Shown here: in pieces, positions 1-64,000 of the stretch
Position numbering within the stretch: position 1 is the stretch's first letter
Layout of the letters: every line of letters begins with the position of its first letter
Assembly: GCA_963402885.1 (NCBI GenBank)
Contig: OY727095.1
Location: 27,223,001-27,287,000, forward strand
Source: Antedon bifida
Lineage: Eukaryota; Echinodermata; Crinoidea; Comatulida; Antedonidae
Reading direction: 5' to 3'
DNA: 64,000 nucleotides
The notes under the pieces: generated by a model
What the model was told of the DNA's origin: nothing
Database searches by the model: none
What the model saw: only the letters and a program-made list of their open reading frames with translations
Translations under genes and position numbers: made by a program

Positions 1-290
1 CGCACTTTCTAATGTTACAAAATTCGGTAGCGATAAAACAGTTTACAATTGATGTGAAGCAACCGTGGCTGAAAATTTCGTTAAAAAATATTTATTTGTT
101 TCAAAGTTATGATCAATTTAAGAATTTCAGAAATTCGCGCGTAACTTACGCTACGTGGCTCTGACAGCGTCCAAAAGCTTCGCAGTACAACTTCAGTTAA
201 ATGTCTAAATGTTTAGAAAGTTACAACATGTTATGTTAACACGTTGCAGAGAAACAGCGTGCACAAAATCTGAGAAAGAAAGAAGAATAA
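1..290 (+). repeat. Family A unit, 3' block only (cut by window edge)
   Basis: Begins inside the 3' block and ends with the standard GAAAGAAAGAAGAATAA directly before the next CTAG. No hairpin cassette is present at this junction. Confidence 0.9.
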
Positions 291-460
291 CTAGATCTGA
301 ACTCGTCACTTGAGGACGAGTTTGGTTATCCGCCCGCTACAAAACGTATCTTGCGCATTCAAGTACTTTTCAGTTATGGCTTTTCCAAAAAGTAGCCTAT
401 TCGAAATTAAAACTGCATATTCAATGTAACAACCAAATAATCCTTTTATTTAATTGTTTT

Positions 461-518
461 CCCGTGACGGGCTCGATCCAAAGTCGGTTGCACTACACAT
501 CGAGCCATATGAGCACCT
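461..518 (-). other. tRNA-like module, internally deleted
   Basis: Copy of the satellite's tRNA-like promoter in which the stretch between the B box and the anticodon region is missing. The A-box side (TGGCTCGATGTG on minus) remains. It is probably not a working Pol III promoter. Confidence 0.75.
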
Positions 519-1865
519 GCCGAATAAAATCCGAAGAAAGATTCCTCGTTCTTTCGGTATGTCGTGAACTCCCTCGATGCAAGTAGATTATTACATATCG
601 AACTAAATCATAATTTTTACTATGATAAAATCTTCACAAATTTCAAACTGTGACATATTATGAAAGTGCATACTTTCAAGTTTTATATATTAACACGTGA
701 AGAAAAAAGATAAACGTTATGTTTATTGTTTTGCTCTTTGAAAATGTTATTGTTTGTTTGATGATCAAAATTTCAAAAATTATATTTAATATGCAAATAA
801 TGTAACCATCAAACACGTTTTGACATTCAACACTATAATAAATCACACCTATGATTCATAGACTGTAATAAAATAAAATAAAACATGGGGGTAACCTGGC
901 GTTCTGATGAACTGTATCATTTTTAAAAGTAGACATATTTTGCAATATTTTCACATTTTTTAACGTTTTACGTGCGCAACCTGTCATGTTTAACGTGCTC
1001 GTAGAACGCCATTTCAAGTTGATAAGTGAATAAAATAACGTTAAATTGTTAACCGAAGTTTGATAAACACAATCTATGCAAAATAAAAGCTCATACGCGA
1101 TCCCTGCGCCGTGCGCGCGTAAAAATGTGCACACCAGTGGCAATTTTGTAATGCTTAAAATGACCTGAATCGTGCTCTAATTTAATCAGAAATTTACTTC
1201 AAGCATTTTAAAATTTCAAACGCCGTTTACGCGCGCACTTTCTAATGTTACAAATTTCGGTAGCAATAATAAAGTTAGCAATTGATGTGAAGCTAACGTG
1301 GCTGAAAATGACGTTAAAAAATATTTATCTGTTTCGAAGTTATAACCAATTTAAGATTTTCAGAAAATCGCGCGTAACTTACGCTACGCGGATCTGACAT
1401 CGTCAAAAAGCTTGGCTGCTCAACTTCAGTAAAATGTCTAAATGCTGAACAAGTTACAACATATTATGTTTACACGTTGCAGAGAAACAGCGTGCACAAA
1501 TTTGGAGCATTTTAAATGTGCAAACGCAGTTTACGCGCAAACTTTCTAGTGTTCAAAAATTTGCTGAAGATCGAAAAAGTTAGCCATTGATGTGAAGAAA
1601 ACGTGGCTGAAAGTTACGTTAAAAAATAGTTATCGGTTTCGAAGTTATGACCGATTTAAGATTTTCAGAATATCGCGCGTGACTTACGCTACGCGGATCT
1701 GACATCGTCAAAAAGCTTGGCTGAACATCTTCAGTTAAATGTCTATATGTTGACCAAGTTACAACGTGTTATGTTAACACGTTGAAGAGAAAAAGCGTGC
1801 ACAAAATCTGAGAAAGAAAGAAGAATAATAAAAAAAAAAAAAAAAAGTAACACTACAATTCCAAG

Positions 1866-1891
1866 GGCTTATCCGCTTGAGGCGGATAACC
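1866..1891. repeat. 3' hairpin cassette, type A
   Basis: Arms GGCTTATCCGC and GCGGATAACC flank a TTGAG loop, with one unpaired C in the left arm. It is preceded by A-rich DNA and GTAACACTACAATTCCAAG, and followed by AACTAG at the unit junction. Confidence 0.85.
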
Positions 1892-1902
1892 AACTAGATC
1901 TG

Positions 1903-1937
1903 AAACTCGTCACTTGAGGACGAGTTTGGTTATCCGC
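1903..1937 (+). other. Representative 5' hairpin and subterminal word, family A
   Basis: Stem AAACTCGTC / GACGAGTTT (9 bp) with loop ACTTGAG at 1903-1927, followed at once by GGTTATCCGC (1928-1937). That word is the same sequence as the left arm of the type A 3' hairpins, so each unit carries an inverted repeat between its 5' subterminus and its 3' hairpin. Confidence 0.85.
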
Positions 1938-2065
1938 CCGCAACAAACGTATCTTGCGCATTCAAGTACTTTTCAATCATGACTTTTCCAAAAAAGTAGC
2001 CTATTCAAAATTAAAACTGCCCTTTCAGTGTAATAACCTAATAAATCCTTTTAATTGATTGTTTT

Positions 2066-2140
2066 CCCGTGATGGGATTCGAACCCGGTACCTCTGATAC
2101 CAAAGTCGGTTGCACTACACATCGAGCCATATGAGCACCT
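2066..2140 (-). promoter_or_regulatory. tRNA-like Pol III promoter module
   Basis: On minus: A box TGGCTCGATGTG, then about 43 nt later an exact B box GGTTCGAATCC. A T-run on minus (CTTTTTTGG, near 1,990-2,000) about 70-80 nt downstream of the B box could end a Pol III transcript of roughly 150 nt pointing to the unit's 5' end. The acceptor arms do not pair, so it is a SINE-like head and not a tRNA gene. Confidence 0.75.
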
Positions 2141-3451
2141 GGTGAAAAAATCCGAAGAAAGAATCCTCGTTCATTCGGTATGTCGTGAACCCCCTCGATG
2201 CAAGTTGATTATTACATATCGAACTTAAATCATAATTTTTACTATGATGAAATCTTCACAAATTTTAAACAGTCACATATTATGAAAGTGCATACTTTCA
2301 AGTTTTATATATTAACATGTAAAGAAAAAAGATAAACGTTATGTTTATTGTTTTACTCTTTAAATATGTTTATGTTTGTTTGATGATAATTATTGCAAAA
2401 ATTACATTTAATATGCAAATAATGTAGCCATCAAACACTTTTTAACATTCAAGACTATTATAAATTAGACCTATGATTCATACACTGCAAGAAAATAAAA
2501 TAAAAAATGGGGGTAACCTTGCATTCTGGTGAACTGTTTCATTTTTAAAAGTAGACATATTTTGGAACATTTTCACAATTTGTTGACGTTTTCGTGCGCA
2601 ACCTGTCATGTTTAACGTGCTCGTAGAACGCCATTTCAAGTTGAAAAGTGAATAAAATAACGTAAAATTGTTAACCGAAGATTTAAAAACACAAATCGTG
2701 TAAAAGAAATGCTCATACGTGTTCCCTGCGCCGTGCGCGCGTAAAAATGTGCGCACCAGTGGCAATTTTTTAAACGCTTAAAATGACCTATATCGTGCTC
2801 TAATTTAATCAGAAATTGATTTGAAGCATTTTAAAATTTTAAACGCCATTTACGCACGCACTTTCTAATGTTACAAATTGCGGTAGCGTTAAAAAAGTTA
2901 ACTATTGATGTGAAGCAAACGTGGCTGAAAATGACGTTAAAAAATATTCGTTTGTTTCGAAGTTATAACCAATTTAAGATTTTCAGAAAATCACGCGTAA
3001 CTTACGCTACGCGGCTCTGACTTCGTCAAAAAGCTTGGCTGGACAACTTCAGTAAAATGTCTAAATGCTGAACAAGTTACAACATATTATGTTTACACGT
3101 TGAAGAGAAACAGCGTGCACAAAATAAGAAGAGTAAAATATTTCAAACGCAATTTACGCGAAAACTTTCTAGTCTCCAAAAATTTGTTAAACATTCCAAA
3201 AGTTAGCCATTGATGTGAAGAAAACGTGGCTGAAAATTTCGTTAAAAAATATTTATCGGTTTCGAAGTTATGACCGATTTAAGATTTTCAGAAAATCGCG
3301 CGTGACTTACGCTACGCGGATCTGACAGCGTCCAAAAGCTTGGCTGAACATCTTCAGTTAAATGTCTAAATGTTGACCAAGTTACAACATGTTATGTTAA
3401 CACGTTGAAGAGAAAACGCGTGCACAAAATCTGAGAAAGAAAGAAGAATAA

Positions 3452-4706
3452 CTAGATCTGAACTCGTCACTTGAGGACGAGTTTGGTTATCCGCCCGCAA
3501 CAAAACGTATCTTGCGCATTCAAGTACTTTTCAGTTATGGCTTTTCCAAAAAGTAGCCTATTCGAAAAATAAAACTGCCTTTTCAGTGTAACAACCAAAT
3601 AAATCCTTTTATTAAATTGTTTTCCCGTGACGGGACTCGATCCCGGTACCTCTAATACCAAAGTCGGTGGCACTACACATCGAGCCATATGAGCACCTGC
3701 TGATGAAATCCGAAGAAAGTTTACTGGTTCATTCGGTATGTCGTGAACCACTCGATGCAAATAGATTATTACTTATCAAACTAAATCATAATTTTTACTA
3801 TGATGAAATCTTCACAAATTTTAAACAGTGACATATTATGAAAGTGCATACATTTAAGTTTTATATATTAACATGTGAAGAAAAAAGATAAACATTATGT
3901 TTATTGTTTTGCTCTTTGAAAATGTTTATGTTTGTTTGATGATAAAAATTTCAAAAATTATATTTAGTATGCAAATAATGTAGCCTTCAAACACGTTTTA
4001 ACATTCAACACTATAATAAATTACACCTACGATTCATACACTGCAAGAAAATAAAATAAAAAATAGGGGTAACCTTACATTCTGATGAACTGTATCATTT
4101 TTAAAAGTAGACATATTTTGCAACATTTTCACAATTTTTTAACGTTTTATGTGCGCAACCAGTCATGTTTAACGTGCTCGTAGAACGCCATTTCAAGTTG
4201 AATAGTGAATAAAATAACGTAAAATTGTTAACCGAAGATTGAAAAACACAAATCGTGCAAAAGAAATGCTCATACGTGTTTCCTGCGTCGTGCGCGCGTA
4301 AAAATGTGCGCACCTGGAGGCAATTTTTCAAACGCTTAAAATGACCTGAATCGTGCTCTAATTTAATCAGAAATTGATTTGGAGCATTTTCAAATTTCAA
4401 ACGCCGTTTACGCGCGCACTTTCCAATGTTACAAATTTCGGTAGCGATAAAAAAGTTAGCAATTGATGTGAAGCAAACGTGGCTGAACATTACGTTAAAA
4501 AATATTCATCTGTTTCGAAGTTATGATCAACTTAGGATTTTCAGAAAATCGCGCGTGACTTACGCTACGCGGGTCTGACATCGTCAAAAAGCTTGGCTGC
4601 ACATCTTCAGTTAAAGGTCTAAATGTTTACCAAGTTACAACATGTAATGTTAACACGTTGCAGAGAAAAGTTGAACACAAAAAGTGGCGGAAATTGAGAA
4701 GAATAA
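3452..4706 (+). repeat. Family A unit, one 3' block, no hairpin
   Basis: 1,255 bp short form. tRNA-like module at 3624-3698. It ends with the variant GTTGAACACAAAAAGTGGCGG and a GAGAAGAATAA tail. Confidence 0.92.
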
Positions 4707-6273
4707 CTAGATCTTAAACTCGTCACTTGAGGACGAGTTTGGTTATCCGCCCGCAACAAAACGTATCTTGCGTATTAAAGTACTTCTCAGTTATGACTTT
4801 TCCAAAAAAGTAGCCTATTCAAAATTAAAACTGCCCTTTAAGTGTAATAACCAAATAAATCCTTTTTTGATTGTTTTCCCGTGATGGGATTCGAACCCGG
4901 TACCTGTGATACCAAAGTCGGTTGCACTACACATCGAGCCATATCAGCACCTGGTGAAGAAAATCCGAAGAAAGAATCCTCGTTCATTCGGTATGTCGTG
5001 AACCCCCTCGATGCAAGTTGATTATTACATATCGAACTTAAATCATAATGTTTACTATGATGAAATCTTCACACATTTTAAACAGTGACATATTATGAAA
5101 GTGCATACTTTCAAGTTTAATATATTAACATGTAAAGAAAAAAGATAAACGTTATGTTTATTGTTTTACTCTTTGAATATGTTTATGTTTGTTTGATGAT
5201 AAATATTTCAAAAATTACATTTAATATGCAAATAATGTAGCCATCAAACACTTTTTAACATTCAAGACTATTATAAATTAGACCTATGATTCATACTCTG
5301 CAAGAAAATAAAATTAAAAAATGGGGTAACCTTGCATTCTGATGAACTGTTTCATTTTTAAAAGTAGACATATTTTGGAACATTTTCACAATTTGTTGAC
5401 GTTTTCGTGCGCAACCTGTCATGTTTAACGTGCTCGTAGAACGCCATTTCAAGTTGAAAAGTGAATAAAATAACGTAAAATTGTTAACCGAAGATTTAAA
5501 AACACAAATCGTGTAAAAGAAATGCTCATACGTGTTCCCTGCGCCGTGCGCGCGTAAAAATGTGCGCAACAGTGGCAATTTTTTAAACGCTTAAAATGAC
5601 CTGAATCGTGCTCTAATTTAATCAGAAATTGATTTGGAGCATTTTAAAATTTCAAACGCCATTTACGCGCGCACTTTCTAACGTTACAAATTGCGGTAGC
5701 GTTAAAAAAGTTAACTATTGATGTGAAGCAAACGTGGCTGAAAATGACGTTAAAAAATATTCGTTTGTTTCGAAGTTATAACCAATTTAAGATTTTCAGA
5801 AAATCACGCGTAACTTACGCTACGCGGCTCTGACATCGTCAAAAAGCTTGGCTGGACAACTTCAGTAAAATGTCTAAATGCTGAACAAGTTACAACATAT
5901 TATGTTTACACGTTGAAGAGAAACAGCGTGCACAAAATAAGAAGAGTAAAATATTTCAAACGCAATTTACGCGAAAACTTTCTAGTCTCCAAAAATTTGT
6001 TAAACATTCCAAAAGTTAGCCATTGATGTGAAGAAAACGTGGCTGAAAATTTCGTTAAAAAATATTTATCGGTTTCGAAGTTATGACCGATTTAAGATTT
6101 TCAGAAAATCGCGCGTGACTTACGCTACGCGGATCTGACAGCGTCCAAAAGCTTGGCTGAACATCTTCAGTTAAATGTCTAAATGTTGACCAAGTTACAA
6201 CATGTTATGTTAACACGTTGAAGAGAAAACGCGTGCACAAAATCTGAGAAAGAAAGAAGAATAATAAAAAAAA
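4707..6273 (+). repeat. Family A unit, two 3' blocks
   Basis: 1,567 bp. tRNA-like module at 4878-4952. The tail is extended by AATAAAAAAAA but holds no hairpin, possibly the stub of a lost cassette. Confidence 0.92.
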
Positions 6274-7527
6274 CTAGATCTGAACTCGTCACTTGAGGAC
6301 GAGTTTGGTTATCCGCCCGCAACACAACGTATCTTGCGCATTCAAGTACTTTTCAGTTATGGCTTTTCCAAAAAGTAGCCTATTCGAAATTAAAACTGCC
6401 TTTTCAGTGTAACAACCAAATAAATCCTTTTATTAAATTGTTTTCCCGTGACGGGACTCGATCCCGGTACCTCTGATACCAAAGTTGGTGGCACTACACA
6501 TCGAGCCATATGAGCACCTGCTGATAAAATCCGAAGAAAGTTTACTCGTTCATTCGGTATGTCGTGAACCACTCGATGCAAATAGATTATTACTTATTAA
6601 ACTAAATCATAATTTTTACTATGATGAAATCTTCACAAATTTTAAACAGTGACACATTATGAAAGTGCATACATTTAAGTTTTATATATTAACATGTGAA
6701 GAAAAAAGATAAACCTTATGTTTATTGTTTTGCTCTTTGAAAATGTTTATGTTTGTTTGATGATAAAAATTTCAAAAATTATATTTAATATGCAAATAAT
6801 GTAGCCTTCAAACACGTTTTAACATTCAACACTATAATAAATCACACCTACGATTCATACACTGCAAGAAAATAAAATAAAAAATAGGGGTAACCTTACA
6901 TTCTGATGAACTGTATCATTTTTAAAAGTAGACATATTTTGCAACATTTTCACAATTTTTTGACGTTTTATGTGCGCAACCAGTCATGTTTAACGTGCTC
7001 GTAGAACGCCATTTCAAGTTGAATAGTGAATAAAATAACGTAAAATTGTTAACCGAAGATTAAAAAACACAAATCGTGCAAAAGAAATGCTCATACGTGT
7101 TTCCTGCGCCGTGCGCGCGTAAAAATGTGCGCACTTGGTGGCAATTTTTCAAACGCTTAAAATGACCTGAATCGTGTTCTAATTTAATCAGAAATTGATT
7201 TGGAGCATTTTAAAATTTCAAACGCCGTTTACGCGCGCACTTTCCAATGTTACAAATTTCGGTAGCGATAAAAAAGTTAGCAATTGATGTGAAGCAAACG
7301 TGGCTGAACATTACGTTAAAAAATATTCATCTGTTTCGAAGTTATGATCAACTTAGGATTTTCAGAAAATCGCGCGTGACTTACGCTACGCGGCTCTGAC
7401 ATCGTCAAAAAGCTTGGCTGCACATCTTCAGTTAAAGGTCTAAATGTTTACCAAGTTACAACATGTAATGTTAACACGTTGCAGAGAAAAGTTGAACACA
7501 AAAAGTGGCGGAAATCGAGAAGAATAA
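6274..7527 (+). repeat. Family A unit, one 3' block
   Basis: 1,254 bp. tRNA-like module at 6445-6519. By eye very close to the unit at 3,452. The preceding long units (1,894 and 4,707) also match, so the long-short pair appears duplicated. Confidence 0.92.
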
Positions 7528-8783
7528 CTAGATCTAAACTCGTCACTTGAGGACGAGTTTGGTTATCCGCCAGCAACAAAACGTATCTTGCGTATTCAAG
7601 TACTTCTAAGTTATGACTTTTCCAAAAAAAGTAGGCTATTCAAAATTAAAACTGCCCTTTAAGTGTAATAACCAAATAAACCTTTTTAATTAATTGTTTT
7701 CCCGTGACGGGATTCGAACCCGGTACCTCCGATACCAAAGGCGGTTGCACTACACATCGAGCCATATGAGCACCTGCCGAAGAAAATCCAAAGAAAGATT
7801 ACTCGTTCATTCGGTATGTCGTGAACCCCCGTGATGCAAGTTGATTATTACATATCAAACTAAATCATAATTTTAACTATGATGAAATCTTCACAAATTT
7901 TAAACAGTGACATATTACGAAAGTGCATACTTTCAAGTTTTATATATTAACATGTAAGGAAAAAAGATAAACGTTATGTTTATTGTTTTGCTCTTTGAAA
8001 ATGTTAGTGTTTGTTTGATGATCAAAATTTCAAAAATTATATTTAATATGCAAATAATGTAGCCATCAAACACGTTTTAGCATTCAACACTATAATAAAT
8101 CAGACCTACGATTCATACACTGCAAGAAGATAAAATAAAAAATGGGGGTAACCGTTAATTCTGATAAACTGTTTCATTTTTAAAAGTAGACATATTTTGC
8201 AACATTTTCACAATTTTGTAACGTTTTACGTGCACAACCAGTCATGTTTAACGTGCTCGTGGAACGCCATTTAAAGTTGAATATTGAATAAAATAACGCA
8301 AAATTGTTAACTGAAGTTTGAAAAACACAATCTATGCAAAATAAAGGCTCATACGCGTTCCCTGCGCCGTGCGCGCGTGAAAATGTGCGCATCTGGTGGG
8401 AATTTTTTAAACGCTTAAAATGACCTGAAACGTGCGCTAATTTAATCAGAAAATGATTTGAAGCATTTTAAAATTTCAAACGCCGTTTACGCGCGCACTT
8501 TCTAATGTTACAAAATTCGGTAGCGATAAAACAGTTTACAATTGATGTGAAGCAACCGTGGCTGAAAATTTCGTTAAAAAATATTTATTTGTTTCAAAGT
8601 TATGATCAATTTAAGAATTTCAGAAATTCGCGCGTAACTTACGCTACGTGGCTCTGACAGCGTCCAAAAGCTTCGCAGTACAACTTCAGTTAAATGTCTA
8701 AATGTTTAGAAAGTTACAACATGTTATGTTAACACGTTGCAGAGAAACAGCGTGCACAAAATCTGAGAAAGAAAGAAGAATAA
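7528..8783 (+). repeat. Family A unit, one 3' block
   Basis: 1,256 bp. The tRNA-like module at 7701-7775 has the best-paired T arm in the array. The final 290 bp match the partial unit at 1-290. Confidence 0.92.
7701..7775 (-). promoter_or_regulatory. tRNA-like module, best-preserved T arm
   Basis: On minus the T arm reads CCGGG-TTCGAAT-CCCGT, four of five pairs around a canonical T loop. The A box TGGCTCGATGTG gives a D stem with three of four pairs. The presumed acceptor arms do not pair, and I could not fold a convincing anticodon arm. Confidence 0.75.
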
Positions 8784-10344
8784 CTAGATCTAAACTCGTC
8801 ACTTGAGGACGAGTTTGGTTATCCGCCAGCAACAAAACGTATCTTGCGTATTCAAGTACTTCTAAGTTATGACTTTTCCAAAAAAAAGTAGGCTATTCAA
8901 AATTTAAACTGCCCTTTAAGTGTAATAACCAAATAAACCTTTTTAATCAATTGTTTTCCCGTGACGGGATTCGAACCCGGTACCTCTGATACCAAAGGCG
9001 GTTGCACTACACATCGAGCCATATCAGCACCTGCTGAAGACAATCCGAAGAAAGAGTCCTCGTTCATTCGGTATGTCGTGAACCCCCTCGATGCAAGTTG
9101 ATTATTACATAATGAACTTAAATCATAATTTTTACTATGATGAAATCTTCACAAATTTTAAACAGTTACATATTATGAAAGTGCATACTTTCAAGTTTTA
9201 TATATTAACATATAAAGAAAAAAGATAAACATTATGTTTATTGTTTTACTTTTTGAATATGTTTATGTTTGTTTGATGATAATTATTTCAAAAATTACAT
9301 TTAATATGCAAATAATGTAGCCATCAAACACTTTTTAACATTCAGGACTATAATAAATTAGACCTGTGATTAATACACTGCAAGAAAATAAAATAAAAAA
9401 TGGGGGTAACCTTGCATTCTGATGAACTGTTTCATTTTTAAAAGTAGACATATTTTGGAACATTTTCACAATTTGTTGACGTTTTCGTGCGCAACCTGTC
9501 ATGTTTAACGTGCTCGTAGAACGCCATTTCAAGTTGAAAAGTGAATAAAATAACGTAAAATTGTTAACCGAAGATTTAAAAACACAAATCGTGTAAAAGA
9601 AATGCTCATACGTGTTCCATGCGCCGTGCGCGCGTAAAAATGTGCGCACCAGTGGTAATTTTTTAAACGCTTAAAATGACCTGAATCGTGCTCTAATTTA
9701 ATCAGAAATTGATTTAAAGCATTTTAAAATTTCAAACGCCATTTACGCGCGCACTTTCTAATGTTACAAATTGCGGTAGCGTTAAAAAAGTTAACTATTG
9801 ATGTGAAGCAAATGTGGCTGAACATGACGTTAAACAATATTCATTTGCTTTGAAGTTATAACCGATTAAAGATTTTCAGAAAATCACGCGTAACTTACGC
9901 TACGCGGCTCTGACATCGTCAAAAAGCTTGGCTGGACAACTTCAGTAAAATGTCTAAATGCTGAACAAGTTACAACATATTATGTTTACACGTTGAAGAG
10001 AAACAGCGTGCACAAACTAAGAAGAGTAAAATATTTCAAACGCAATTTACGCGAAAACTTTCTAGTCTCCAAAAATTTGTTAAACATTCCAAAAGTTAGC
10101 CATTGATGTGAAGAAAACGTGGCTGAAAATTTCGTTAAAAAATATTTATCGGTTTCGAAGTTATGACCGATTTAAGATTTTCAGAAAATCGCGCGTGACT
10201 TACGCTACGCGGATCTGACAGCGTCCAAAAGCTTGGCAGAACATCTTCAGTTAAATGTCTAAATGTTGACCAAGTTACAACATGTTACGTTAACACGTTG
10301 AAGAGAAAATGCGTGCACAAAATCTGAGAAAGAAAGAAGAATAA
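8784..10344 (+). repeat. Family A unit, two 3' blocks
   Basis: 1,561 bp. tRNA-like module at 8958-9032. No hairpin cassette at the 3' junction. Confidence 0.92.
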
Positions 10345-12027
10345 CTAGATCTTAACTCGTCACTTGAGGACGAGTTTGGTTATCCGCCCGCAACAAACGT
10401 ATCTTGCGCATTCAAGTACTTTTCAATCATGACTTTTCCAAAAAGTAGCCTATTCGATAATAAAACTCCCTTTCAGTGTAATAAGCAAACAAATCCTTTT
10501 ATTTAATTATTTTCCCGTGACGGGATTCGATCCCGGTACCTCTGATACCAAAGTCGGTTGCACTACACATCGAGCCATATGAGCACCTGCTGAAGAAAAT
10601 CCGAAGAACAATTACTCGTTCATTCGGTATGTCGTGAACCCCTCGATGCAAGTTGATTATTACCTATCAAACTAAATCATAATTTTTACTAGGATGAAAT
10701 CTTCACACATTTGAAACAGTAACATATTATGAAAGTTCATACTTTCAAGTTTTATATATTATAATGTGAAGAAAAAAGATAAACGTTATGTTTATTGTTT
10801 TGCTCTTTGAAAATGTTAGTGTTTGTTTGATGATCAAAATTTCAAAAATTTTATTTAATATGCATATAATGTAGCCATCAAGCACGTTTTAGCATTCAAG
10901 ACTATAATAAATCAGACCTATGATTCATACACTGCAAGAAAATAAAATAAAAAATGGGGGTAACCTTGCATTCTGATGAACTGTATCGTTTTTAAAAGTA
11001 GACATATTTTGCAACATTTTCACAATTATTAGACATTTTACGTGCGCAACCAGTCATGTTTAACGTGCTCGTGGAACGCCATTTCCAGTTGAATAGTGAA
11101 TAAAATAACGCAAAATTGTTAACTGAAGTTTGAAAAACACAATCTATGCAAAATAAAGGCTCATACGCGTTCCCTGCGCCGTGCGCGCGTGAAAATGTGC
11201 GCATCTGGTGGGAATTTTTTAAACGCTTAAAATGACCTGAAACGTGCGCTAATTTAATCAGAAAATGATTTGAAGCATTTTAAAATTTCAAACGCCGTTT
11301 ACGCGCGCACTTTCTAATGTTACAAAATTCTGTAGCGATAAAACAGTTTACAATTGATGTGAAGCAACCGTGGCTGAAAATTTCGTTAAAAAATATTTAT
11401 TTGTTTCAAAGTTATGATCAATTTAAGAATTTCATAAATTCGCGCGTAACTTACGCTACGTGGCTCTGACAGCGTCCAAAAGCTTCGCAGTACAACTTCA
11501 GTTAAATGTCTAAATGTTTAGAAAGTTACAACATGTTATGTTAACACGTTGCAGAGAAACAGCGTGCACAAAATCTGAGAAAGAAAGAAGAATAATAAAA
11601 AAAAGTAACACTACAATTCCAAGGGCTTATCCGCTTGAGGCGGATAACCAATAAAAAAAAAAAAAAAAAGTAACACTACAATTCCAAGGGCTTATCCGCT
11701 TGAGGCGGATAACCAATAAAAAAAAAGTAACACTACAATTCCAAGGGCTTATCCGCTTGAGGCGGATAACCAATAAAAAAAAAGTAACACTACAATTCCA
11801 AGGGCTTATCCGCTTGAGGCGGATAACCAAAAAGAAACACGTACAATAACAAAGGTTATCCGCTTGTGGCGGATAACCAATAAAAAAAAAGTAACACTAC
11901 AATTCCAAGGGCTTATACGCTTGAGGCGGATAACCAATAAAAAAAAGTAACACTACAATTCCAAGGGCTTATCCGCTTGAGGCGGATAACCAATAACAAA
12001 GGTTATCCGCTTGAGGCGGATAACCAA
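10345..12027 (+). repeat. Family A unit, one 3' block, eight 3' hairpins
   Basis: 1,683 bp in all: a body of about 1,250 bp (tRNA-like module at 10514-10588) plus about 430 bp of hairpin cassettes. Confidence 0.92.
11596..12024 (+). repeat. Hairpin cassette array, eight type A cassettes
   Basis: Eight repeats of about 50-65 bp, each an A-run, GTAACACTACAA(TTCCAAG or TAACAAA), and a TTATCCGC...GCGGATAA hairpin. Cassette 5 has loop TTGTG; cassette 6 has an arm change (TTATACGC) without a compensating change. Every cassette keeps the unit's orientation. Confidence 0.9.
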
Positions 12028-13646
12028 CTAGATCTAAACTCGTCACTTGAGGACGAGTTTGGTTATCCGCCCGCAACAAAACGTATCTTGCGTATTAAAG
12101 TACTTCTCAGTTATGACGTTTCCAAAAAAGTAGCCTATTCAAAATTAAAACTTCCCTTTCAGTGTAATAACCTAATAAATACTTTTAATTAATTGCTTTC
12201 CCGTGATGGGATTCGATCCCGGTACCTCTAATACCAAAGTCGGTTGCACTACACATCGAGCCATATGAGCACCTGCTGAAGAAAATCCGAAGAAAGAGTC
12301 CTCGTTCATTCGGTATGTCGTGAACCCCCTCGATGCAAGTTGATTATTACATATCGAACTTAAATCATAATTTTTACTATGATGAAATCTTCACAAATTT
12401 TAAACACTGACATATTATGAAAGTGCATACTTTCAAGTTTTATGTATTAACATGTAAAGAAAAAAGATAAACGTTATGTTTATTGTTTTACTCTTTGAAT
12501 ATGTTTATGTTTGTTTGTTGATAATTATTTCAAAAATTACATTTAATATGCAAACAATGTAGCTATCAAACACTTTTTAACATTCAAGACTATAATAAAT
12601 TAGACCTATGATTAATACACTGCAAGAAAATAAAATAAAAAATGGGGGTAACCTTGCATTCTGATGAACTGTTTCATTTTTAAAAGTAGACATATTTTGC
12701 AACATTTTCACAATTTGTTGACGTTTTCGTGCGCAACCTGTTATGTTTAACGTGCTCGTAGAACGCCATTTCAAGTTGAAAAGTGAATAAAATAACGTAA
12801 AATTGTTAACCGAAGATTTAAAAACACAAATCGTGTAAAAGAAATGTTCATATGTGTTCCCTGCGCCGTGCGCGCGTAAAAATGTGCGCACCAGTGGCAA
12901 TTTTTTAAACGCTTAAAATGACCTGAATCGTGCTCTAATTTAATCAGAAATTGATTTGAAGCATTTTAAAATTTCAAACGCCATTTACGCGCGCACTTTC
13001 TAATGTTACAAATTGCGGTAGCGTTAAAAAAGTTAACTATTGATGTGAAGCAAACGTGACTGAAAATGAAGTTAAAAAATATTCATTTGTTTCGAAGTTA
13101 TAACCAATTTAAGATTTTCAGAAAATCACGCGTAACTTACGCTACGCGGCTCTGACATCGTCAAAAAGCTTGGCTGGACAACTTCAGTAAAATGTCTAAA
13201 TGCTGAACAAGTTACAACATATTATGTTTACACGTTGAAGAGAAACAGCGTGCACAAAATAAGAAGAGTAAAATATTTCAAACGCAATTTACGCGAAAAC
13301 TTTCTAATCTCCAAAAATGTGTTAAACATTCCAAAAGTTAGCCATTGATGTGAAGAAAACGTGGCAGAAAATTTCGTTAAAAAATATTTATCGGTTTCGA
13401 AGTTATGACCGATTTAAGATTTTCAGAAAATCGCGCGTGACTTACGCTACGCGGATCTGACAGCGTCCAAAAGCTTGGCAGAACATCTTCAGTTAAATGT
13501 CTAAATGTTGACCAAGTTACAACATGTTATGTTAACACGTTGAAGAGAAAATGCGTGCACAAAATCTGAGAAAGAAAGAAGAATAATAAAAAAAAAAAAG
13601 TAACACTACAATTCCAAGGGCTTATCCGCTTGAGGCGGATAACCAA
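12028..13646 (+). repeat. Family A unit, two 3' blocks, one hairpin
   Basis: 1,619 bp. tRNA-like module at 12200-12274 with the variant CTCTAATACC. By eye almost identical to the unit at 15,207. Hairpin at 13619-13644. Confidence 0.92.
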
Positions 13647-15206
13647 CTAGAACTTAAACTCGTCACTTGAGGACGAGTTTGGTTATCCGCCCGCAACAAA
13701 ACGTATATTGCGTATTAAAGTACTTCTCAGTTATGACTTTTCCAAAAAAGTAGCCTATTCAAAATTAAAACTGCCCTTTCAGTGTAATAACCTAATAAAT
13801 CCTTTTAATTAATTGTTTTCCCGTGACGGGATTCGAACCCGGTACCTCTGATACCAAAGTCGGTTGCACTACACATCGAGCTATATGAGCACCTGCTGAA
13901 GAAAGTCCGAAGAAAGAGTCCTCGTTCATTCGGTATGTCGTGAACCCCCTCGATGCAAGTTGATTATTACATATCGAACTTAAATCATAATTTTTACTAT
14001 GATGAAATCTTCACAAATTTTAAACAGTGAAATATTATGAAAGTGCATACTTTCAAGTTTTATATATTAACATGTAAAGAAAAAAGATAAACTTTATGTT
14101 TATTGTTTTACTCTTTGAATATGTTTATGTTTGTTTGATGATAATTATTTAAAAAATTACATATAATATGCAAATAATGTAGCCATCAAACACTCTTTAA
14201 CATTCAAGACTATTATAAATTAGACCTATGATTCATACACTGCAAGAAAATAAAATAAAAAATGGGGGTAACCTTGCATTCTGATGAACTGTTTCATTTT
14301 TAAAAGTAGACATATTTTAGAACATTTTCACAATTTGTTCACGTTTTCGTGCGCAACCTGTCATGTTTAACGTGCTCGTAGAACGCCATTCCAAGTTGAA
14401 AAGTGAATAAAATAACGTAAAATTGTTAACCGAAGATTTAAAAACACAAATCGTGTAAAAGAAATGCTCATACGTGTTCCCTGCGCCGTGCGCGCGTAAA
14501 AATGTGCGCACCAGTGGCAATTTTTTAAACGCTTAAAATGACCTGAATCGTGCTCTAATTTAATCAGAAATTGATTTGAAGCATTTTAAAATTTCAAACG
14601 CCTTTTACGCGCGCACTTTCTAATGTTACAAATTGCGGTAGCGTTAAAAAAGTTAACTATTGATGTGAAGCAAACGTGGCTGAAAATGACGTTAAAAAAT
14701 ATTCATTTGTTTCGAAGTTATAACCAATTTAAGATTTTCAGAAAATCACGCGTAACTTACGCTACGCGGCTCTGACATCGTCAAAAAGCTTGGCTGGACA
14801 ACTTCAGTAAAATGTCTAAATGCTGAACAAGTTACAACATATTATGTTTACACGTTGAAGAGAAACAGCGTGCACAAAATAAGAAGAGTAAAATATTTCA
14901 AACGCAATTTACGCGAAAACTTTCTAGTCTCCAAAAATTTGTTAAACATTCCTAAAGTTAGCCATTGATGTGAAGAAAACGTGGCTGAAAATTTCGTTAA
15001 AAAATATTTATCGGTTTCGAAGTTATGACCGATTTAAGATTTTCAGAAAATCGCGCGTGACTTACGCTACGCGGATCTGACACCGTCCAAAAGCTTGGCT
15101 GAACATCTTCAGTTAAATGTCTAAATGTTGACCAAGTTACAACATGTTATGTTAACACGTTAAAGAGAAAACGCGTGCACAAAATCTGAGAAAGAAAGAA
15201 GAATAA
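13647..15206 (+). repeat. Family A unit, two 3' blocks
   Basis: 1,560 bp. It starts CTAGAACTTAAACTC and not CTAGATCT, so the base composition just after CTAG is not fixed. tRNA-like module at 13820-13894. Confidence 0.92.
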
Positions 15207-16824: not shown

Positions 16825-16831
16825 CTAGATT

Positions 16832-16868
16832 TAATTCGTCACTATGACGAATTATAGGTTATATGCAT
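16832..16868 (+). other. 5' hairpin and subterminal word, family B
   Basis: Stem TAATTCGTCA / TGACGAATTA (10 bp, loop CTA), then AGGTTATATGCAT at 16856-16868. Compared with family A the stem carries a paired C-G to T-A change. The word equals the arm of the type B hairpins at 49,076-50,196. Confidence 0.85.
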
Positions 16869-17170
16869 TGATTAAAATAAAGATAATTGATTTGTAAAAG
16901 ATATATTGATTGATTGATTTTCTCAGAATCTTTAATTATTTATAATATATGCTAGGATCTTGCTAACGCAAATACAATAGCCGGTATCGCAATCCGATCA
17001 AAGATCCCTCTGCGTATAATGTCATAAACCACATTTGTTACATAATAATAAAGACATAAGTTTCTTTTTATCTAGATTTCATTATAAATCATGTGTATAA
17101 TCTATACACTAAGAAATAAAATTGAACAAACAATACAAATAATAAAAAAAAATCTTATTTCGTTTCGTTA

Positions 17171-47554: not shown

Positions 47555-48935
47555 CTAGAACTTAAACTCGTCACTTGAGGACGAGTTTGGTTATCCGCCC
47601 GCAACAAAACGTATCTTGCGTAATAAAGTACTTTTCAGTTATGACTTTTCCAAAAAAGTAGCCTATTCAAAATTAAAACTGCCCTTTCAGTGTAATAACC
47701 TAATAAATCCTTTTAATTGATTGTTTTCCCGTGATGGGATTCGAACCCGGTACCTCTGATACTAAAGTCGGTCGCACTACACATCGAGCCATATGAGCAC
47801 CTGGTGAAGAAAATCCGAAGAAAGTTTACTCGTTCATTCGGTATGTCGTGAACCCCCTCGATGCAAGTTGATTATTACATATCGAACTTAAATCATAATT
47901 TTTACTATGATGAAATCTTCACACATTTTAAACAGTGACATATTATGAAAGTGCATACTTTCAAGTTTTATATATTAACATGTAAAGAAAAAAGATAAAC
48001 GTTATGTTTATTGTTTTACTCTTTGAATATGTTTATGTTTGTTTGATGATAATTATTTCAAAAATTACATTTAATATGCAAATAATGTAGCCATCAAACA
48101 CTTTTTAACATTCAAGACTATTATAAATTAGACCTATGATTCATACACTGCAAGAAAATAAAATAAAAAATGGGGGTAACCTTGCATTCTGGTGAACTGT
48201 TTCATTTTTAAAAGTAGACATATTTTGGAACATTTTCACAATTTGTTGACGTTTTCGTGCGCAACCTGTCATGTTTAACGTGCTCGTAGAACGCCATTTC
48301 AAGTTGAAAAGTGAATAAAATAACGTAAAATTGTTAACCGAAGATTTAAAAACACAAATCGTGTAAAAGAAATGCTCATACGTGTTCCCTGCGCCGTGCG
48401 CGCGTAAAAATGTGCGCACCAGTGGCAATTTCTTAAACGCTTAAAATGACCTGAATCGTGCTCTAATTTAATCAGAAATTGATTTGAAGCATTTTAAAAT
48501 TTCAAACGCCATTTACGCGCGCATTTTCTAATGTTACAAATTGCGGTAGCGTTAAAAAAGTTAACTATTGATGTGAAGCAAACGTGGCTGAAAATGACGT
48601 TAAAAAATATTCGTTTGTTTCGAAGTTATAACCAATTTAAGATTTTCAGAAAATCACGCGTAACTTACGCTACGCGGCTCTGACATCGTCAAAAAGCTTG
48701 GCTGGACAACTTCAGTAAAATGTCTAAATGCTGAACAAGTTACAACATATTATGTTTACACGTTGAAGAGAAACAGCGTGCACAAAATAAGAAGAGTAAA
48801 ATATTTCAAACGCAATTTACGCGAAAACTTTCTAGTCTCCAAAAATTTGTTAAACATTCCAAAAGTTACAACATGTTATGTTTACACGTTGAAGAGAAAA
48901 CGCGTGCACAAAATCTGAGAAAGAAAGAAGAATAA
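47555..48935 (+). repeat. Last family A unit, second 3' block deleted
   Basis: tRNA-like module at 47728-47802. At about 48,867 the sequence jumps from the start of the second 3' block (CCAAAAGTTA) to its end (AGTTACAACATG), losing about 180 bp between two AAGTTA words, which suggests a microhomology deletion. Confidence 0.9.
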
Positions 48936-49075
48936 TAAAAAAAAAAAAAAGTAACACTACAATAACAAATGCTTATCCGCTTGAGGCGGATAACCAATAA
49001 AAAAAAGAAACACTACAATTCCAAGGGCTTATCCGCTTGAGGCGGATAACCAATAAAGATCCTGACAGAATCAAG

Positions 49076-49222
49076 AGGTTATATGCATATCATGCATATA
49101 ACCTAATAAATAAATAAAGATCCTGACAGAATCAAGAGGTTATATGCATATCATGCATATAACCTAATAAATAAAGATCCTGACAGAATCAAGAGGTTAT
49201 ATGCATATCATGCATATAACCT
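49076..49222. repeat. Three type B hairpins
   Basis: At 49076-49104, 49137-49165 and 49194-49222. Each is a perfect 13-bp stem, AGGTTATATGCAT / ATGCATATAACCT, with loop ATC. The arm equals the subterminal word of the family B units at 16,825 and 18,244. Confidence 0.92.
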
Positions 49223-50050
49223 AATAAAAAAGAAACACTACAATTCCAAGGGCTTATCCGCTTGAGGCGGATAACCAAAAAAAAGTAACACTACAATTCC
49301 AAGGGCTTATCCGCTTGAGGCGGATAACCAATAAAAAAAAGTAACACTACAATAACAAATGCTTATCCGCTTGAGGCGGATAACCAATGAGGCGGATAAC
49401 CAATAAAAAAGAAACACTACAATTCCAAGGGCTTATCCGCTTGAGGCGGATAACCAAAAAAAAAAAAGTAACACTACAATTCCAAGGGCTTATCCGCTTG
49501 AGGCGGATAACCAATAACAAAAAAAAGTAACACTACAATAACAAAGGTTATCCGCTTGAGGCGGATAACCAATAAAAAAAAGTAACACTACAATAACAAA
49601 TGCTTATCCGCTTGAGGCGGATAACCAAAAAGTAACACTACAATAACAAATGCTTATCCGCTTGAGGCGGATAACCAAAAAAGAAACACTACAATTCCAA
49701 GGGCTTATCCGCTTGAGGCGGATAACCAAAAAGTAACACTACAATTCCAAGGGCTTATCCGCTTGAGGCGGATAACCAATAAAAAAAAAAGAAAAAAAAA
49801 GTAACACTACAATTCCAAGGGCTTATCCGCTTGAGGCGGATAACCAAAAAAAAAAGTAACACTACAATAACAAAGGTTATCCGCTTGAGGCGGATAACCA
49901 ATAAAATTCCAAGGGCTTATCCGCTTGAGGCGGATAACCAAAAAAAAAAGTAACACTACAATAACAAAGGCTTATCCGCTTGAGGCGGATAACCAATAAA
50001 AAAAAGTAACACTACAATAACAAATGCTTATCCGCTTGAGGCGGATAACC

Positions 50051-50052
50051 AA

Positions 50053-50083
<31 letters not shown>

Positions 50084-50094
50084 AGATCCTGACA
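50051..50094. repeat. (TAAA)n microsatellite
   Basis: About eleven TAAA repeats between a type A and a type B cassette, probably grown from the AATAAATAAA linker that follows the hairpins. Confidence 0.9.
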
Positions 50095-50102
50095 GAATCA
50101 AG

Positions 50103-50196
50103 AGGTTATATGCATATCATGCATATAACCTAATAAATAAATAAATAAAGATCCTGACAGAATCAAGAGGTTATATGCATATCATGCATATAACCT
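50103..50196. repeat. Two type B hairpins at the array edge
   Basis: At 50103-50131 and 50168-50196, identical to the group at 49,076, each led by GATCCTGACAGAATCAAG. They are the last hairpins before the array ends. Confidence 0.92.
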
Positions 50197-50868: not shown

Positions 50869-50904
50869 CGGCATGGACCGGGGTGACGATACATGGGTGT
50901 GTGG

Positions 50905-52173: not shown

Positions 52174-52181
52174 AGTCAGCT

Positions 52182-53074: not shown

Positions 53075-53082
53075 AGTCAGCT

Positions 53083-54328: not shown

Positions 54329-54359
54329 GGGTGAAAACATAACCTCCTTGGCGGAGGTA

Positions 54360-59506: not shown

Positions 59507-61020
59507 CTAGACATGAAACTCGTCACTTTGACGAGTTAGTTATCCGCACGACAAACGCCACGTGCACGTCATACGTTGGAATATTGCACACAGAAAACTA
59601 TTATGGCATTATGACCTGAACTGAAGAATATGATATGTTGTTATTGCTGAATTCTGTTATTTTCTGTCATATCATAGTATACACAGTATAATCTGTATAC
59701 ATATCACATACAGTGTAGAATAGGTGAAATTACGGGACCCGCTATTTATTCCAAATTTTAACATGTTGACGGTTTCAAAATGAAACGCGAAGGTAGCAAT
59801 TTCGGAAGGAAATTATCTCAGCAACAACATATTAATGTGTAGAGTAAATTTGAATACGTGAAATATTGATGCGCGCTCTTTTAAATGTAATGAACTATGA
59901 CGCAAAAGATGACTTTTTAAAGTCAAGTGGCCATATAATGACGTCACAACATCCGATTGGCAAAATGTTAACATGATTTTGTATCTACAATCCAATAGCT
60001 TCCAGAAAATGTTTTAATCATGATTATCACGTTTTATTCTGACGAGCTATAACAGATTGAAATTTACTGTAAAGATGAAAATAAGTGACCTAGGTTATTT
60101 ACATTTTTAGATATGATGACGTCATAAAAATTAAAATATTTTTAACTCATGCGAAAGATAGTTGATTGACCTAGAAAATATAAAAATCGGGGTGAAAATG
60201 GAAAACAGATAAGTGGAGATGCGCTCTATTAAATGTGATGAGCTATGACGAAAGATACAAAAATCCTATATTTTATATTCGCATGGCCATACGATGACAT
60301 CTCAATGACCGGTTCGCCATACCAATGCATGATTCCATATCTACAACTTATCATCTTCCAGAATATGTAATAAAAATAACTTTCACCGTTTAGTTTAGAA
60401 ACTACGACCGTTTGAAAAAAGGTATAATTTTGACAAATTTTTGAACTTTTTCATCAAAAACGCACGTAAATTATCCAATTCAACGTGCCCGTATGACGTA
60501 ATTTTAAGTCGAAATTGTTTAAAAGTTGGTAAAATTACTAGAAAAGGCTGGCAAAACATAAATCACGCAAAAAAAATTGTTTTCAACGCTACGTTCGCAC
60601 CGTGCGCATAAAAAAATGAGTGCGCGTGGGAATTTTTTACATGCACAAAATGATATGAAACGCGTAGAAAGTTGATTAGAAATTGATTTTTCGCATTTTA
60701 AAATTTTAATCGCGCGTGCGCGCATAACTTTGTGTGAAACATGCCATTTTTTTTCCACAGTCAGCTAGCGCAAGATATAAATTAAATTTTTGTTAAGTTT
60801 CAATTTACGTTATTATATGGTTTTCGATATATGTTAAAAACGGCAAATTCATAAAAACGCGCGTAAGTCACGTTGCGCATTTCTGACGTTATTCACAATA
60901 GCAGGTGCACAACTTCACGTGAATGCCCACATGTTGACAAAGTTATGAAATGTTATGTGTACACGTTTTTGAGATACGCGTGACACAAAAATGACAGAAA
61001 GAAAGAAGAATACAGAAAAA
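59507..61020 (+). repeat. Family D1 unit
   Basis: 1,514 bp. 5' hairpin AACTCGTCA / TGACGAGTT (59517-59537), then AGTTATCCGC at 59538-59547. An internal segment (GATGCGCTCT...GGCCATA) occurs twice, near 59,868 and 60,219. Confidence 0.88.
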
Positions 61021-62244
61021 CTAGATTTGAACTCGTCACTTTGACGAGTTCGGGTTATCCGCGCAAACGCAACATGCACATACGTTTATATATATGAACG
61101 CCGACAATTATTATGCCATCATATGACATGAAATAAATATGTTTACAGTGCTGAATTGTACCTATTTTGTAGCATACAGCATATTACAGTATTTACAGAA
61201 TACACTGTATATGTTATATACAGTGTAGCATGGACGAAATTACGAAATCTTTTAAATCCAATTATTAACACGATGACGTCATCAAATTGACATATAAACA
61301 TAACTATTTTAAAAGCTAATTATCTAAATAATTACATTAATACAAATTTGAAGAATTTTGGGCACGTAAAATGAGATGCGCTCTCGTTTAAACGCAATGA
61401 AATTTTACGCAAGAGATGAAAATATGACTTTTTGAATTCAACGGGCCATATGATGACGTCATTATGACATCAGATAGACAAAATTTGTATATGAATTCAT
61501 ATCTACAATTCAACAACTTCTATAATAAGTTTTAATCATGCGTGTCACTTTTTATTCTGACGAGCTATAACAGATTAAAATTTACTGTATAAGAGAGATG
61601 TGTTCTTTTGAATGTGATGAGCAATAACGAAATAGACAAAAATCCTATATTTTACATGCGTGTGGCCATACGATGTTGTCATAACATCCGAGAGGTAAAA
61701 ATTCTGCATGAAATCATTTCTACAATTTATCTTCTTGCATAATAAGTTAAAAAAATTGGGGGTCACCTTTGATCCTGAAGAGCTATAATAGATTCAAAAT
61801 AGGCATTATTTTGACAATATTTTATAACTTTTTAAACTAAAACGCGCGCAAATGGTCTAAATCAACGTGTTCGTATGACATCATTTTAATTTGAAATTAT
61901 GTCAATCTTTTTGAAAATGACTAGGAAAGGCTGGAAAATCACAATTCAAGAGAAAAAACTTTTTGTGAAACATGCCATTTTTAATCCATTGAAAGTTTGC
62001 CCTTGATATAATTTAAATTTTCACCAAGTGTCAATACAAAATGACTTTTGGTTTATAATCCATGACCAATCATTGAAATTCATAAAATTGCGCGTAACTT
62101 ACGCTGCGCGACTCTAACGTCATTAAAAATATGGAGGTGCACAACTTCAGGTAAATGTCCATATAATGACAAAGTTATACAAAAGATATATTCACAAGCA
62201 ATAGGGGATATGCTGCTCACAAAAATCCGGGAAAGAAAGAAGAA
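61021..62244 (+). repeat. Family D2 unit
   Basis: 1,224 bp. 5' hairpin GAACTCGTCA / TGACGAGTTC (61029-61051, loop CTT), then GGTTATCCGC at 61053-61062. Confidence 0.88.
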
Positions 62245-63753
62245 CTAGACATGAAACTCGTCACTTTGACGAGTTAGTTATCCGCTCGACAAACGCCACA
62301 TGCACGTCATACGTTGGAATGTTGCACACAGAAAAGGATTATGGCATTATGACCTGAACTGAAGAATATGATATGTTGTTAGTGCTAAATTCTGTCTATT
62401 TTGTGTCATATAGTATATACATTTTAAAGTACACAGTATAATCTGTATACACGTAATTTAAATTTTTAGGCATGATGATGTCATAAAAATTAAATATTTT
62501 TAACTCATGCATAAGATAGTTGATTGACCTAGACAATATTAAAATCTCGGAGAAAAAGGAATACAGATAAGCGTGATGCGCTCCATTTAATGTGATGAGC
62601 AATAACGAAAGAGACAAAAATCATATATTTTACATTTGTGTGGCCATACGATGACGTCACAATGTCCGGTTAGCCATATTGATTAATGATCCGATATCTA
62701 CAACTCATCACCTTCCATAATATGTAAGTAAAAAAAAGTTTACCTCGTAGTATAGAATCTATGATTGTTTAAAAAAAGGCATAATTTTGACGAATTTTTG
62801 AATTTTTTCATTAAAAACACGCACAAATTGTACAATTCGACGTGCTCGTATGACGTAATTTTAAGTCTAAATTGTTTTAAAATTTGATAAAATTACTATA
62901 AAAGGCTGGAAAAACATCATTCGCGCAAAAAAAGATGTTTTTAGCGCTACGTGCGGACATGCTCAAAATGTCATGATCAGCGTAGAAAGTTGATTAGAAA
63001 TTAATTTTGCGCATTTTAAATTTTAAATGCGCGTGCGCGCGTAACTTCGTGTAAAACATGCCATTTTTAGTGCACAAAAAGTTAGTGCAAGATATAAATT
63101 AAACTTTTGCTAAGTTTCAACTTAAATTGTTATATGGTTTTCAGTCTATGTTAAATACGGGAAATTCATAAAATCACACGTAAATCACGTTACGCATTTC
63201 TGACATCATTCACAATAGTAGGTGCACAACTTCACGTGATTGCCCATATTTTGACAAAGTTATGAAATGTTATGTTTACACATTTTTGATATAAGCGAGA
63301 AACAAAAATAGAGGAGAAATGCGCGTGCGCGTGTAACGTCTTGTAAAACATGGCATTTTTAATCCACAAAAAGTTTGCCCTTGATATGACTTAAATTTTC
63401 ACAAAGTGTCAAAATAAAATTATGCTTGGTTTTTAGCCTATGATCAATCATAAAAAATCATAAAATCGCACGTAAGTCACGTTGCGCAAATCTGACGTCA
63501 TTCAAAAATAGGAGGTGCACATGTTCACGTACATGCCCACATGTTGACAAAGTTATAAAATGTTATGTTTACACGTTTTTGAGATACGCGACCCACAAAA
63601 ATGACAGAAAGAAAGAAGAATAACATAGAAAAAGAATCTGGACAATAACAAGGAGTTATCCGCTTCTAAGCGGATAACTAATAAAGATGAAAAAAAAAAA
63701 GATATTTACAATCACAAGGATTATCCGCAACTTAATAAGTTGCGGATAACCAA
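62245..63753 (+). repeat. Family D1 unit with two 3' blocks and two hairpins
   Basis: 1,509 bp. Starts as D1 (AGTTATCCGC after the hairpin) and carries a duplicated 3' block (about 63,010-63,310 and 63,315-63,640), the same duplication seen in long family A units. Two different hairpins follow. Confidence 0.88.
63654..63749. repeat. Two dissimilar 3' hairpins
   Basis: Hairpin 1 (63654-63679): AGTTATCCGCTT / AAGCGGATAACT, 12-bp stem, matching the D1 subterminal word. Hairpin 2 (63721-63749): TTATCCGCAACTT / AAGTTGCGGATAA, 13-bp stem, loop AAT, matching TTATCCGCAAC of the next unit (63788-63798). Leaders are GACAATAACAAGG and TACAATCACAAGG, like those of family A cassettes. Confidence 0.88.
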
Positions 63754-64000
63754 CTAGATTTGAACTCGTCACTTTGACGAGTTCGGGTTATCCGCAACAT
63801 GCACATACGTTTAAAATATATGAACGCTGACAATTATTATGCCATCCTATGACATGAATTAAATATGTTTACAGTGCTGAATTGTACCTATTTTGTAGCA
63901 TACAGCATATTACAGTATTTACAGAATACATTGTATGTTATATACAGTGCAGCATAGACGAAATTACGAGACCCAAGATGACGTCATCAAATTGACATAT
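63754..64000 (+). repeat. Family D2 unit (cut by window edge)
   Basis: Starts CTAGATTTGAACTCGTCA. The word after the hairpin reads TTATCCGCAACATG, where 61,021 has TTATCCGCGCAAACGCAACATG, an 8-bp difference. Confidence 0.85.

Follow-up and report, generated by a model that had tools for sequence, protein, structure and literature searches.

The 64,000-nucleotide stretch of the crinoid Antedon bifida considered here (the window; C8:27223001-27287000, within a 315.6-Mb genome) carries satellite-like arrays of repeat units whose two ends share a subterminal word, W. Each unit starts with CTAGA, a short stem-loop (TCGTCACT..GACGA core) and then W, and closes with a body end like GAAAGAAGAATAA, an A-run, a short lead (e.g. 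GTAACACTACAATTCCAAGG) and a hairpin (the W-hairpin), whose right arm is the reverse complement of W and which is followed by AA. We propose, with a probability of roughly 0.88, that the units are HINEs, non-autonomous Helentron derivatives that arose by deletion and that stack at T^T near the palindromic subterminal inverted repeats (subTIRs) of resident copies. An earlier note on this DNA had described a paired change of the 5' word and the 3' hairpin arms among families; the words and positions cited in it are all present in the window. Its 5'/3' orientation is reversed with respect to published Helentrons, in which the W-hairpin corresponds to the 5' palindromic subTIR, and CTAG with its stem-loop to the 3' end. 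Below, "start" refers to the stem-loop end, and coordinates keep the direction of the earlier note.

Unit anatomy and joint variation of the two ends

Six word classes are distinguished: GGTTATCC (families A, D2 and F), AGTTATCC (D1), GGTTTTCC (E), AGGTTATATG (B), AGGTGATCA (C) and AGGCTATCG (H, one pair). The letters A, B and D are those of the earlier note, and the others (C, E, F, H) were assigned in this analysis. The inverted repeat measures 10 bp in family A and 13 bp in family B, compared with about 11-15 bp expected of Helentrons. The ACTCGTC/GACGAGT-type stem-loop lies 7-10 nt from the CTAG end. In four window ends that were measured, 31-33 nt separate the W-side subTIR from the 3' end. 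The 5' end (published orientation) is TTGG or TTAG. The bodies of families with different W also diverge (local matches mostly of 65-82% identity). A tRNA-like stretch, GGGATTCGATCCCGGTACC, was noticed by eye in A bodies (window 440-520, at the same place in other A units; L059); ARAGORN called no tRNA in the window, this stretch included.

Genome-wide, the A word GGTTATCCGC gives 2694+2768 matches against 34+53 for its reversed control, and the stem-loop core 2359+2344 (a lower bound, since a trailing 'not G' letter in the pattern drops some copies) against 6+5, ruling out a chance origin of the W words and stem-loops. In the window, GGTTATCCGC occurs 40 times and GCGGATAACC 48 times, and 29 A ends fit the strict stem-loop-end pattern. 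Six A hairpins or half-hairpins of the window were absent from the script list and were added by eye; hairpins of the opposite strand that carry GCGCATTTT belong to bodies and were removed before counting. The 45 family-A hairpins of the window (left arm ending in TTATCCGC, right arm GCGGATAACC) only partly bear out the arms given in the earlier note: the right arm stays matched to W, but the left arm is perfect (GGTTATCCGC) in 8 and in the other 37 reads GCTTATCCGC, with one mismatch. Because the left arm departs from W while the right arm matches it, the sequences point to the inverted repeat between the two ends, and not the hairpin's own pairing, as the feature that is kept.

Table 1. Features of the window (positions from its first letter; W, subterminal word)
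Position	Strand	Feature
1..50196	+	HINE array of families A and B; bodies in tandem, spaced mostly 1.25-1.6 kb, and hairpin clusters that separate and follow them
291..333	+	One of the family-A stem-loop ends, with CTAGATCTGA, the ACTCGTC/GACGAGT stem-loop and W GGTTATCCGC (324-333)
11604..12027	+	Group of A W-hairpins, interpreted as a stack of 5' termini from nested copies
16825..16868	+	Family-B stem-loop end, W AGGTTATATGCAT at 16856
18244..18287	+	Second family-B stem-loop end, W AGGTTATATGCAT at 18275
40058..40337	+	Five clustered A W-hairpins
44297..44457	+	Three clustered A W-hairpins
46009..46290	+	Cluster of A W-hairpins, four by script and a fifth (46145-46169) by eye
48943..50196	+	Terminal W-hairpin cluster (families A and B); B hairpin arms AGGTTATATGCAT at 49076, 49137, 49194, 50103 and 50168
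59507..59547	+	Family-D1 stem-loop end, W AGTTATCCGC at 59538
61021..61062	+	Family-D2 stem-loop end, W GGGTTATCCGC
62245..62285	+	Family-D1 stem-loop end, W AGTTATCCGC at 62276, closed by the hairpin at 63654
63654..63679	+	D1 W-hairpin, AGTTATCCGC/GCGGATAACT (right arm at 63670)
63721..63751	+	D2 W-hairpin ending in GCGGATAACC; bracket partner of the D2 start at 61021
63754..63795	+	Family-D2 stem-loop end, inserted immediately after the hairpin at 63721

Joint variation of the two ends was assessed outside the window at 33 parsed genomic loci (26 with at least one start), a non-random sample drawn in part from the GGTTATCCGC match list and otherwise from a W-blind stem-loop list, from which families and clusters were picked. 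Each hairpin was joined to the most recent unpaired start (last-in first-out), and the pairs were scored by word class. The two ends share their class in 47 of 53 pairs, compared with a mean of 14.7 and a maximum of 26 in 10,000 random re-pairings, and the association claimed in the earlier note thus extends beyond the window; within it, the hairpin that follows a D1 unit is indeed of the D1 type (Table 1). The 16 loci that parse without leftovers contribute 33 matched pairs of 35. In the fetched stretches 4 starts remain without a hairpin and 13 hairpins without a start; the hairpin finder is incomplete, and missed for example a hairpin in L073 since AA does not directly follow it. Apparent exceptions, in which a D2 start seemed to go with an AGTT hairpin (L050, L057, L063, L064), dissolved when every start proved to have a D2-type hairpin. 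A D1 start lies on the same strand about 1 kb beyond the fetched stretch in L050, L063 and L064 (5574125, 10311024 and 13187484), and for L057 none was seen.

The same agreement is found within a single lineage whose word is either GGTTTTCC or GGTTATCC. Its hairpins, of the form AGAGGTTWTCCTGCAACTTCGTTGCGGAWAACC, number 268 in the genome, and their W positions are complementary in 100 of the 100 listed, although the pattern permits mixed (non-complementary) positions; matching starts (TTTGACGAGTTTGGTTWTCCGCNGCGCAAGTGG) number 301, of which 100 are listed. Among the listed hairpins and starts that stand on the same strand at a distance of one unit, 51 of 53 pairs agree in the variable base (40 T-T, 11 A-A, 2 A-T, 0 T-A; Fisher 1e-9, a value that overstates independence as the copies are related). 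Association by mere adjacency was rejected: of the 13 hairpins that stand 100 bp or less from a start, 3 have the other base, and therefore element membership counts, not nearness. A further element with the same hairpin lead carries AGTTATCC at both ends (in N1, a nest described below). Functional coupling of the two ends is strongly suggested by these patterns. They are consistent with recognition of both ends by a common factor, or with pairing of the ends with each other; inverted-repeat identity and end-to-end pairing predict alike, so that sequence alone cannot separate a shared binding site from pairing.

The coding Helentron and the insertion site

A coding Helentron lies at about C8:27201290-27218410 on the minus strand, its Rep domain 16 kb upstream of the window. 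A 3182-aa open frame is found at its place, and its Pfam domains comprise OTU, DUF6570, Helitron_like_N, PIF1 and EEP-nuclease (PF14214, 4e-36; PF05970, 1.2e-13; PF03372, 1.9e-8; three pieces of one minus-strand frame, scanned separately). Its ends match a family-A unit of the window (start region 92% identical over 594 bases, tail 89% over 1411 bases). The earlier note had inferred a Helentron/HINE origin and proposed a search for a Rep/helicase frame bounded by the same ends; this element contains such a frame, and it supports that origin. Because it shares both ends with the A units and carries the Rep/helicase domains, the A units are most probably derived by deletion from this Helentron or from one closely related to it, with W as its subTIR. 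On the minus strand the order is a long interspersed nuclear element (LINE) reverse-transcriptase frame, then an A start, an A body, an A start, an A body, and an A start with the coding element, followed by an A-type tail and the three W-hairpins of the coding element's nest, after which the LINE frame resumes.

Other Rep-related loci were also encountered. The genome holds 39 Helitron_like_N matches, several of them in open frames of ∼3,000 residues. A second Rep/helicase clade (L030, L031, L034-L036) is 57-66% identical to the first (22 of 30 loci compared, those of at least 900 residues); in the one case read (L082), no W-hairpin was present within 3 kb after the frame. For the element at L012 the body end was found, with another start directly after it (L083, L084). 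The best Helitron_like_N match (1.4e-53) is in L009 (C12:16129729-16130268), a 606-residue frame followed by a second frame, which is clearly unlike the Helentron copies and is possibly a canonical Helitron. Part of the coding element next to the window (L060, C8:27208897-27212400, minus strand) encodes an OTU protease domain and two PF04843 stretches (herpesvirus tegument N-terminal, 1.8e-21), apparently a tandem duplicate.

The LINE interrupted by this nest allows the filled and empty sites to be compared. A joined query of its two flanks (103 bases) is covered whole by 18 genomic matches (93-99% identity), 13 of which span exactly 103 bases. In the three copies read, the empty site is A10 (two copies) or TA9 (one copy), and the filled site is A5, the element and A7. 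The element thus contributes two As, or duplicates AA, at this site, and there is no target duplication beyond that possible AA (a 2-bp AA duplication being indistinguishable from element-terminal As). All 93 starts with exact CTAGA are preceded by A, and 87 of the 93 by AA. The target is thus A^A, or T^T on the other strand.

Nested order of the ends and the origin of the arrays

The arrangement of starts and hairpins is most clearly seen in N1 (C1:9945700-9967000, 21 kb), which contains 12 starts and as many hairpins, belonging to four word classes, in the order (((())()((()())(())))()), a start being written as an opening and a hairpin as a closing bracket. Pairing in bracket order gives matching words in 12 of 12 cases and pairing in queue order in 6 of 12, while shuffled hairpins give a mean of 4.1, with 0 of 2000 shuffles reaching 12. 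L054 has five starts followed by five hairpins (bracket order 5/5), with the outermost word closing last, and L043, L058 and L074 have the form (()). Starts followed by an equal number of hairpins are thus seen at five loci, and word order discriminates in three of them (N1, L043 and L054; bracket 2/2 against queue 1/2 in L043). Mirror order is also seen in the E lineage, with starts at C1:15455593 (T) and 15457152 (A) followed by hairpins at 15460472 (A) and 15460542 (T). The nest next to the window interrupts a single LINE copy and consists of three starts and three hairpins, and at the right end of the window the starts run D1, D2, D1 and the hairpins after them D1, D2. We consider it very probable that the satellite-like arrays are built by elements inserting beside the hairpins of older copies, so that their ends come to be nested as brackets. 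This order accounts for the remote B hairpins, a caveat of the earlier note: they lie far from the B units because later insertions nest between a B unit and its own hairpin. From the second B end of the window to its first B hairpin, 19 A starts and 20-21 A hairpins are counted, in agreement with nesting to within one or two. Most hairpins beyond the first B hairpins have no start inside the window; the A copy that extends past its left edge may be 5'-truncated against a LINE, such that the starts of the later hairpins were lost.

The proposed sequence of events is as follows. In the published orientation an element would consist of TT, the palindromic subTIR (W/W'), the body, the subTIR, the stem-loop and AGATCTAG, placed between T and T with no clear target-site duplication. 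The element-encoded Rep/helicase would recognise the subTIR at both ends, which would explain why W changes at both together, and a rolling-circle step would generate new copies. These would enter T^T (A^A) no more than about 100 bp from a resident palindromic subTIR, and in the same orientation because the target is A-rich on one strand. Repeated insertions would then leave stem-loop ends and W-hairpins in balanced-bracket order.

The landing sites bear on this choice of site. By script, 41 of the 93 starts follow a body end, 25 follow a W-hairpin and 27 lie elsewhere; inspection by eye resolved these 27 into five further body ends, three sites inside element bodies and 19 in host sequence. 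All 36 window starts stand at a body end or hairpin and none in the interior of a body (array duplication means that these events are not independent). On C1, a same-strand neighbour within 3.3 kb is found for 34 of 96 copies and an opposite-strand neighbour for 2 of 96, a bias consistent with an orientation-fixing A^A target. Active direction of insertion to the hairpin is an inference. It might be that a Rep complex on the resident palindromic subTIR brings the incoming single strand to the adjoining T-run, the arrays then being site-directed, orientation-fixed stacks that record the insertion order of competing families; we offer this tentatively and think it rather more likely wrong than right. 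Undirected nesting, in which insertion occurs at any A-run and the surroundings of hairpins merely hold long A-runs in insertion-collecting regions, has a chance somewhat below even. Long A-runs do adjoin many hairpins, insertions into host sequence are also at A-rich sites, and the three starts inside bodies fit; yet the 32 window bodies measured (27 A, 2 B, 3 D) offer 323 A-runs of at least 5 (151 of at least 6) in which no window start is found, many sites are a short AA rather than a long run, and close neighbours stand mostly on the same strand.

An ordinary satellite, growing by unequal crossing over or from rolling-circle concatemers, with hairpins and stem-loops as mere unit parts, would account for the long regular A arrays of the window, for local hairpin duplications and for junctions that are exact hairpin-to-start joins. 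It predicts repeats of start, body and hairpin, however, and not a series of starts mirrored by an equal series of hairpins; it is refuted for mixed-family nests by bracket order as in N1, exact joins also occur between families (A hairpin to B start, 16822-16825), and overall we regard it as very unlikely, although it may apply to local amplification of family A in the window. Pure descent, in which families are defined by their subTIRs and the ends vary jointly without functional coupling, is unlikely but deserves more weight: between families, a difference in W goes with a difference in the bodies, a published scheme delimits families by subTIR identity (PMC4067079, as excerpted), and the change within a lineage may reflect one or two events that were then copied repeatedly. 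Against it, one lineage with the same hairpin lead carries W as GGTTTTCC, GGTTATCC or AGTTATCC, each matching the other end, and the left arm of the window A hairpins differs from W in 37 of 45 with the right arm matched. Another transposon class, such as a terminal inverted repeat transposon or a canonical Helitron1, is extremely improbable, given the lack of target duplication beyond the possible AA, a target that is A^A/T^T and not A^T, the EEP nuclease accompanying Rep/helicase, and the subTIRs with a stem-loop. Canonical Helitron1 (5'-TC, 3'-CTRR, a hairpin 10-12 nt from the 3' end, insertion between A and T) was considered because the Antedon elements have a 3' CTAG (which fits CTRR) and a nearby stem-loop, and was rejected as their 5' end is TTGG/TTAG in place of TC, at an A^A/T^T site.

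Several observations weigh against nested Helentrons with coupled ends. Six of the 53 pairs mismatch, five by the first letter of W (A versus G) and one through a damaged start W; all six come from three loci (L065, L066 and L067) with hairpins that lack a start or escaped the finder. The loci were partly selected by W and the copies are related by descent. L057, L058, L063, L064, L066 and L074 score equally in bracket and queue order, and L065 scores better in queue order (3/3 against 1/3, with an earlier version of the hairpin finder). The long A array of the window fails an exact parse, its starts and hairpins being unequal in number, and slippage contributes to the terminal hairpin cluster (48943..50196), because this holds local tandem duplications of period 94 and 273. 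In homogeneous arrays nesting and duplication are indistinguishable, and a nested pair could have moved as one composite.

Other repeats lie to the right of the array. A minisatellite of 15 copies of 30 bp (window 50900-51346) is found ∼700 bases past the hairpin cluster. Short GACGATTCGGCCC / GGGCCGAAAC repeats occupy window 52188-53069 beside the array, and by-eye comparison finds them also upstream of the autonomous Helentron (L061, minus strand, about 555-660). A 175-aa open frame on the minus strand (window 58150-58677) resembles, by eye, a reverse-transcriptase remnant.

Relation to known systems

Nesting in bracket order, if correctly read, joins three topics that are usually separate, i.e. 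Helentron subTIRs, multiple 5' termini and how satellite arrays arise. It pairs displaced ends with their own element, making joint end change testable on thousands of copies, and it allows the relative age of families to be read from a single locus. The single base that differs at both ends together in the GGTTTTCC/GGTTATCC lineage provides a clean substrate pair for asking which hairpin strand Rep reads. If self-targeting is true, head-to-tail arrays could form by this route, with no need for unequal crossing over. The open-licence literature, as far as excerpts represent it, yielded no account of Helentron arrays in bracket order, which is weak evidence of novelty.

Helentrons, as described in the excerpted account (Thomas et al. 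2014, PMC4067079), encode a Rep/helicase with a fused endonuclease and insert at TT with variable numbers of Ts and no target modification; their subTIRs, sometimes palindromic, lie 2-4 nt from the 5' end, the 3' end has a stem-loop, families share identical subTIRs, and deletion derivatives outnumber the coding element. Once reverse complemented, the Antedon elements fit the Helentron/HINE/DINE-1 layout given there (TT, palindromic subTIR, body, subTIR, stem-loop and CTAG), with a 3' subTIR nearer to the end (31-33 nt) than the 38-60 nt published for Helentrons. The 3' CTAG is as given for proto-Helentron-Pi, and the Rep frame is antisense to the usual layout, as reported for Helentron-Da-40 (PMC4067079). 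Paired end differences between families are thus expected in kind; what is new here is how the array is built, by bracket-like nesting.

The Fusarium oxysporum FoHeli elements (Helitron2-type), in the portion of the report consulted (PMC5148889), resemble those of Antedon in that the inverted repeat is the hairpin at the other end and in that some coding frames are reversed. Their multiple 5' termini were put down to self-insertion, nested copies are mentioned, and tandem Helitron insertions are mentioned also for bat, Drosophila, rice and maize. The duplicated 5' termini of FoHeli are typically <200 bp, with one nested case, whereas here a dozen elements of several word classes stand in bracket order. 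The oyster Cg_HINE, in the sections seen of its description (PMC7492417), are likewise non-autonomous Helentrons tied to satellite-like repeats and inserted at TT without duplication; their tandem repeats are inside one element, whereas here whole elements make up the array. The same source notes that inner copies of tandem Helitrons are often 3'-truncated, for which nesting could be a source; in Antedon, each seemingly truncated inner copy has its missing end later in the array.

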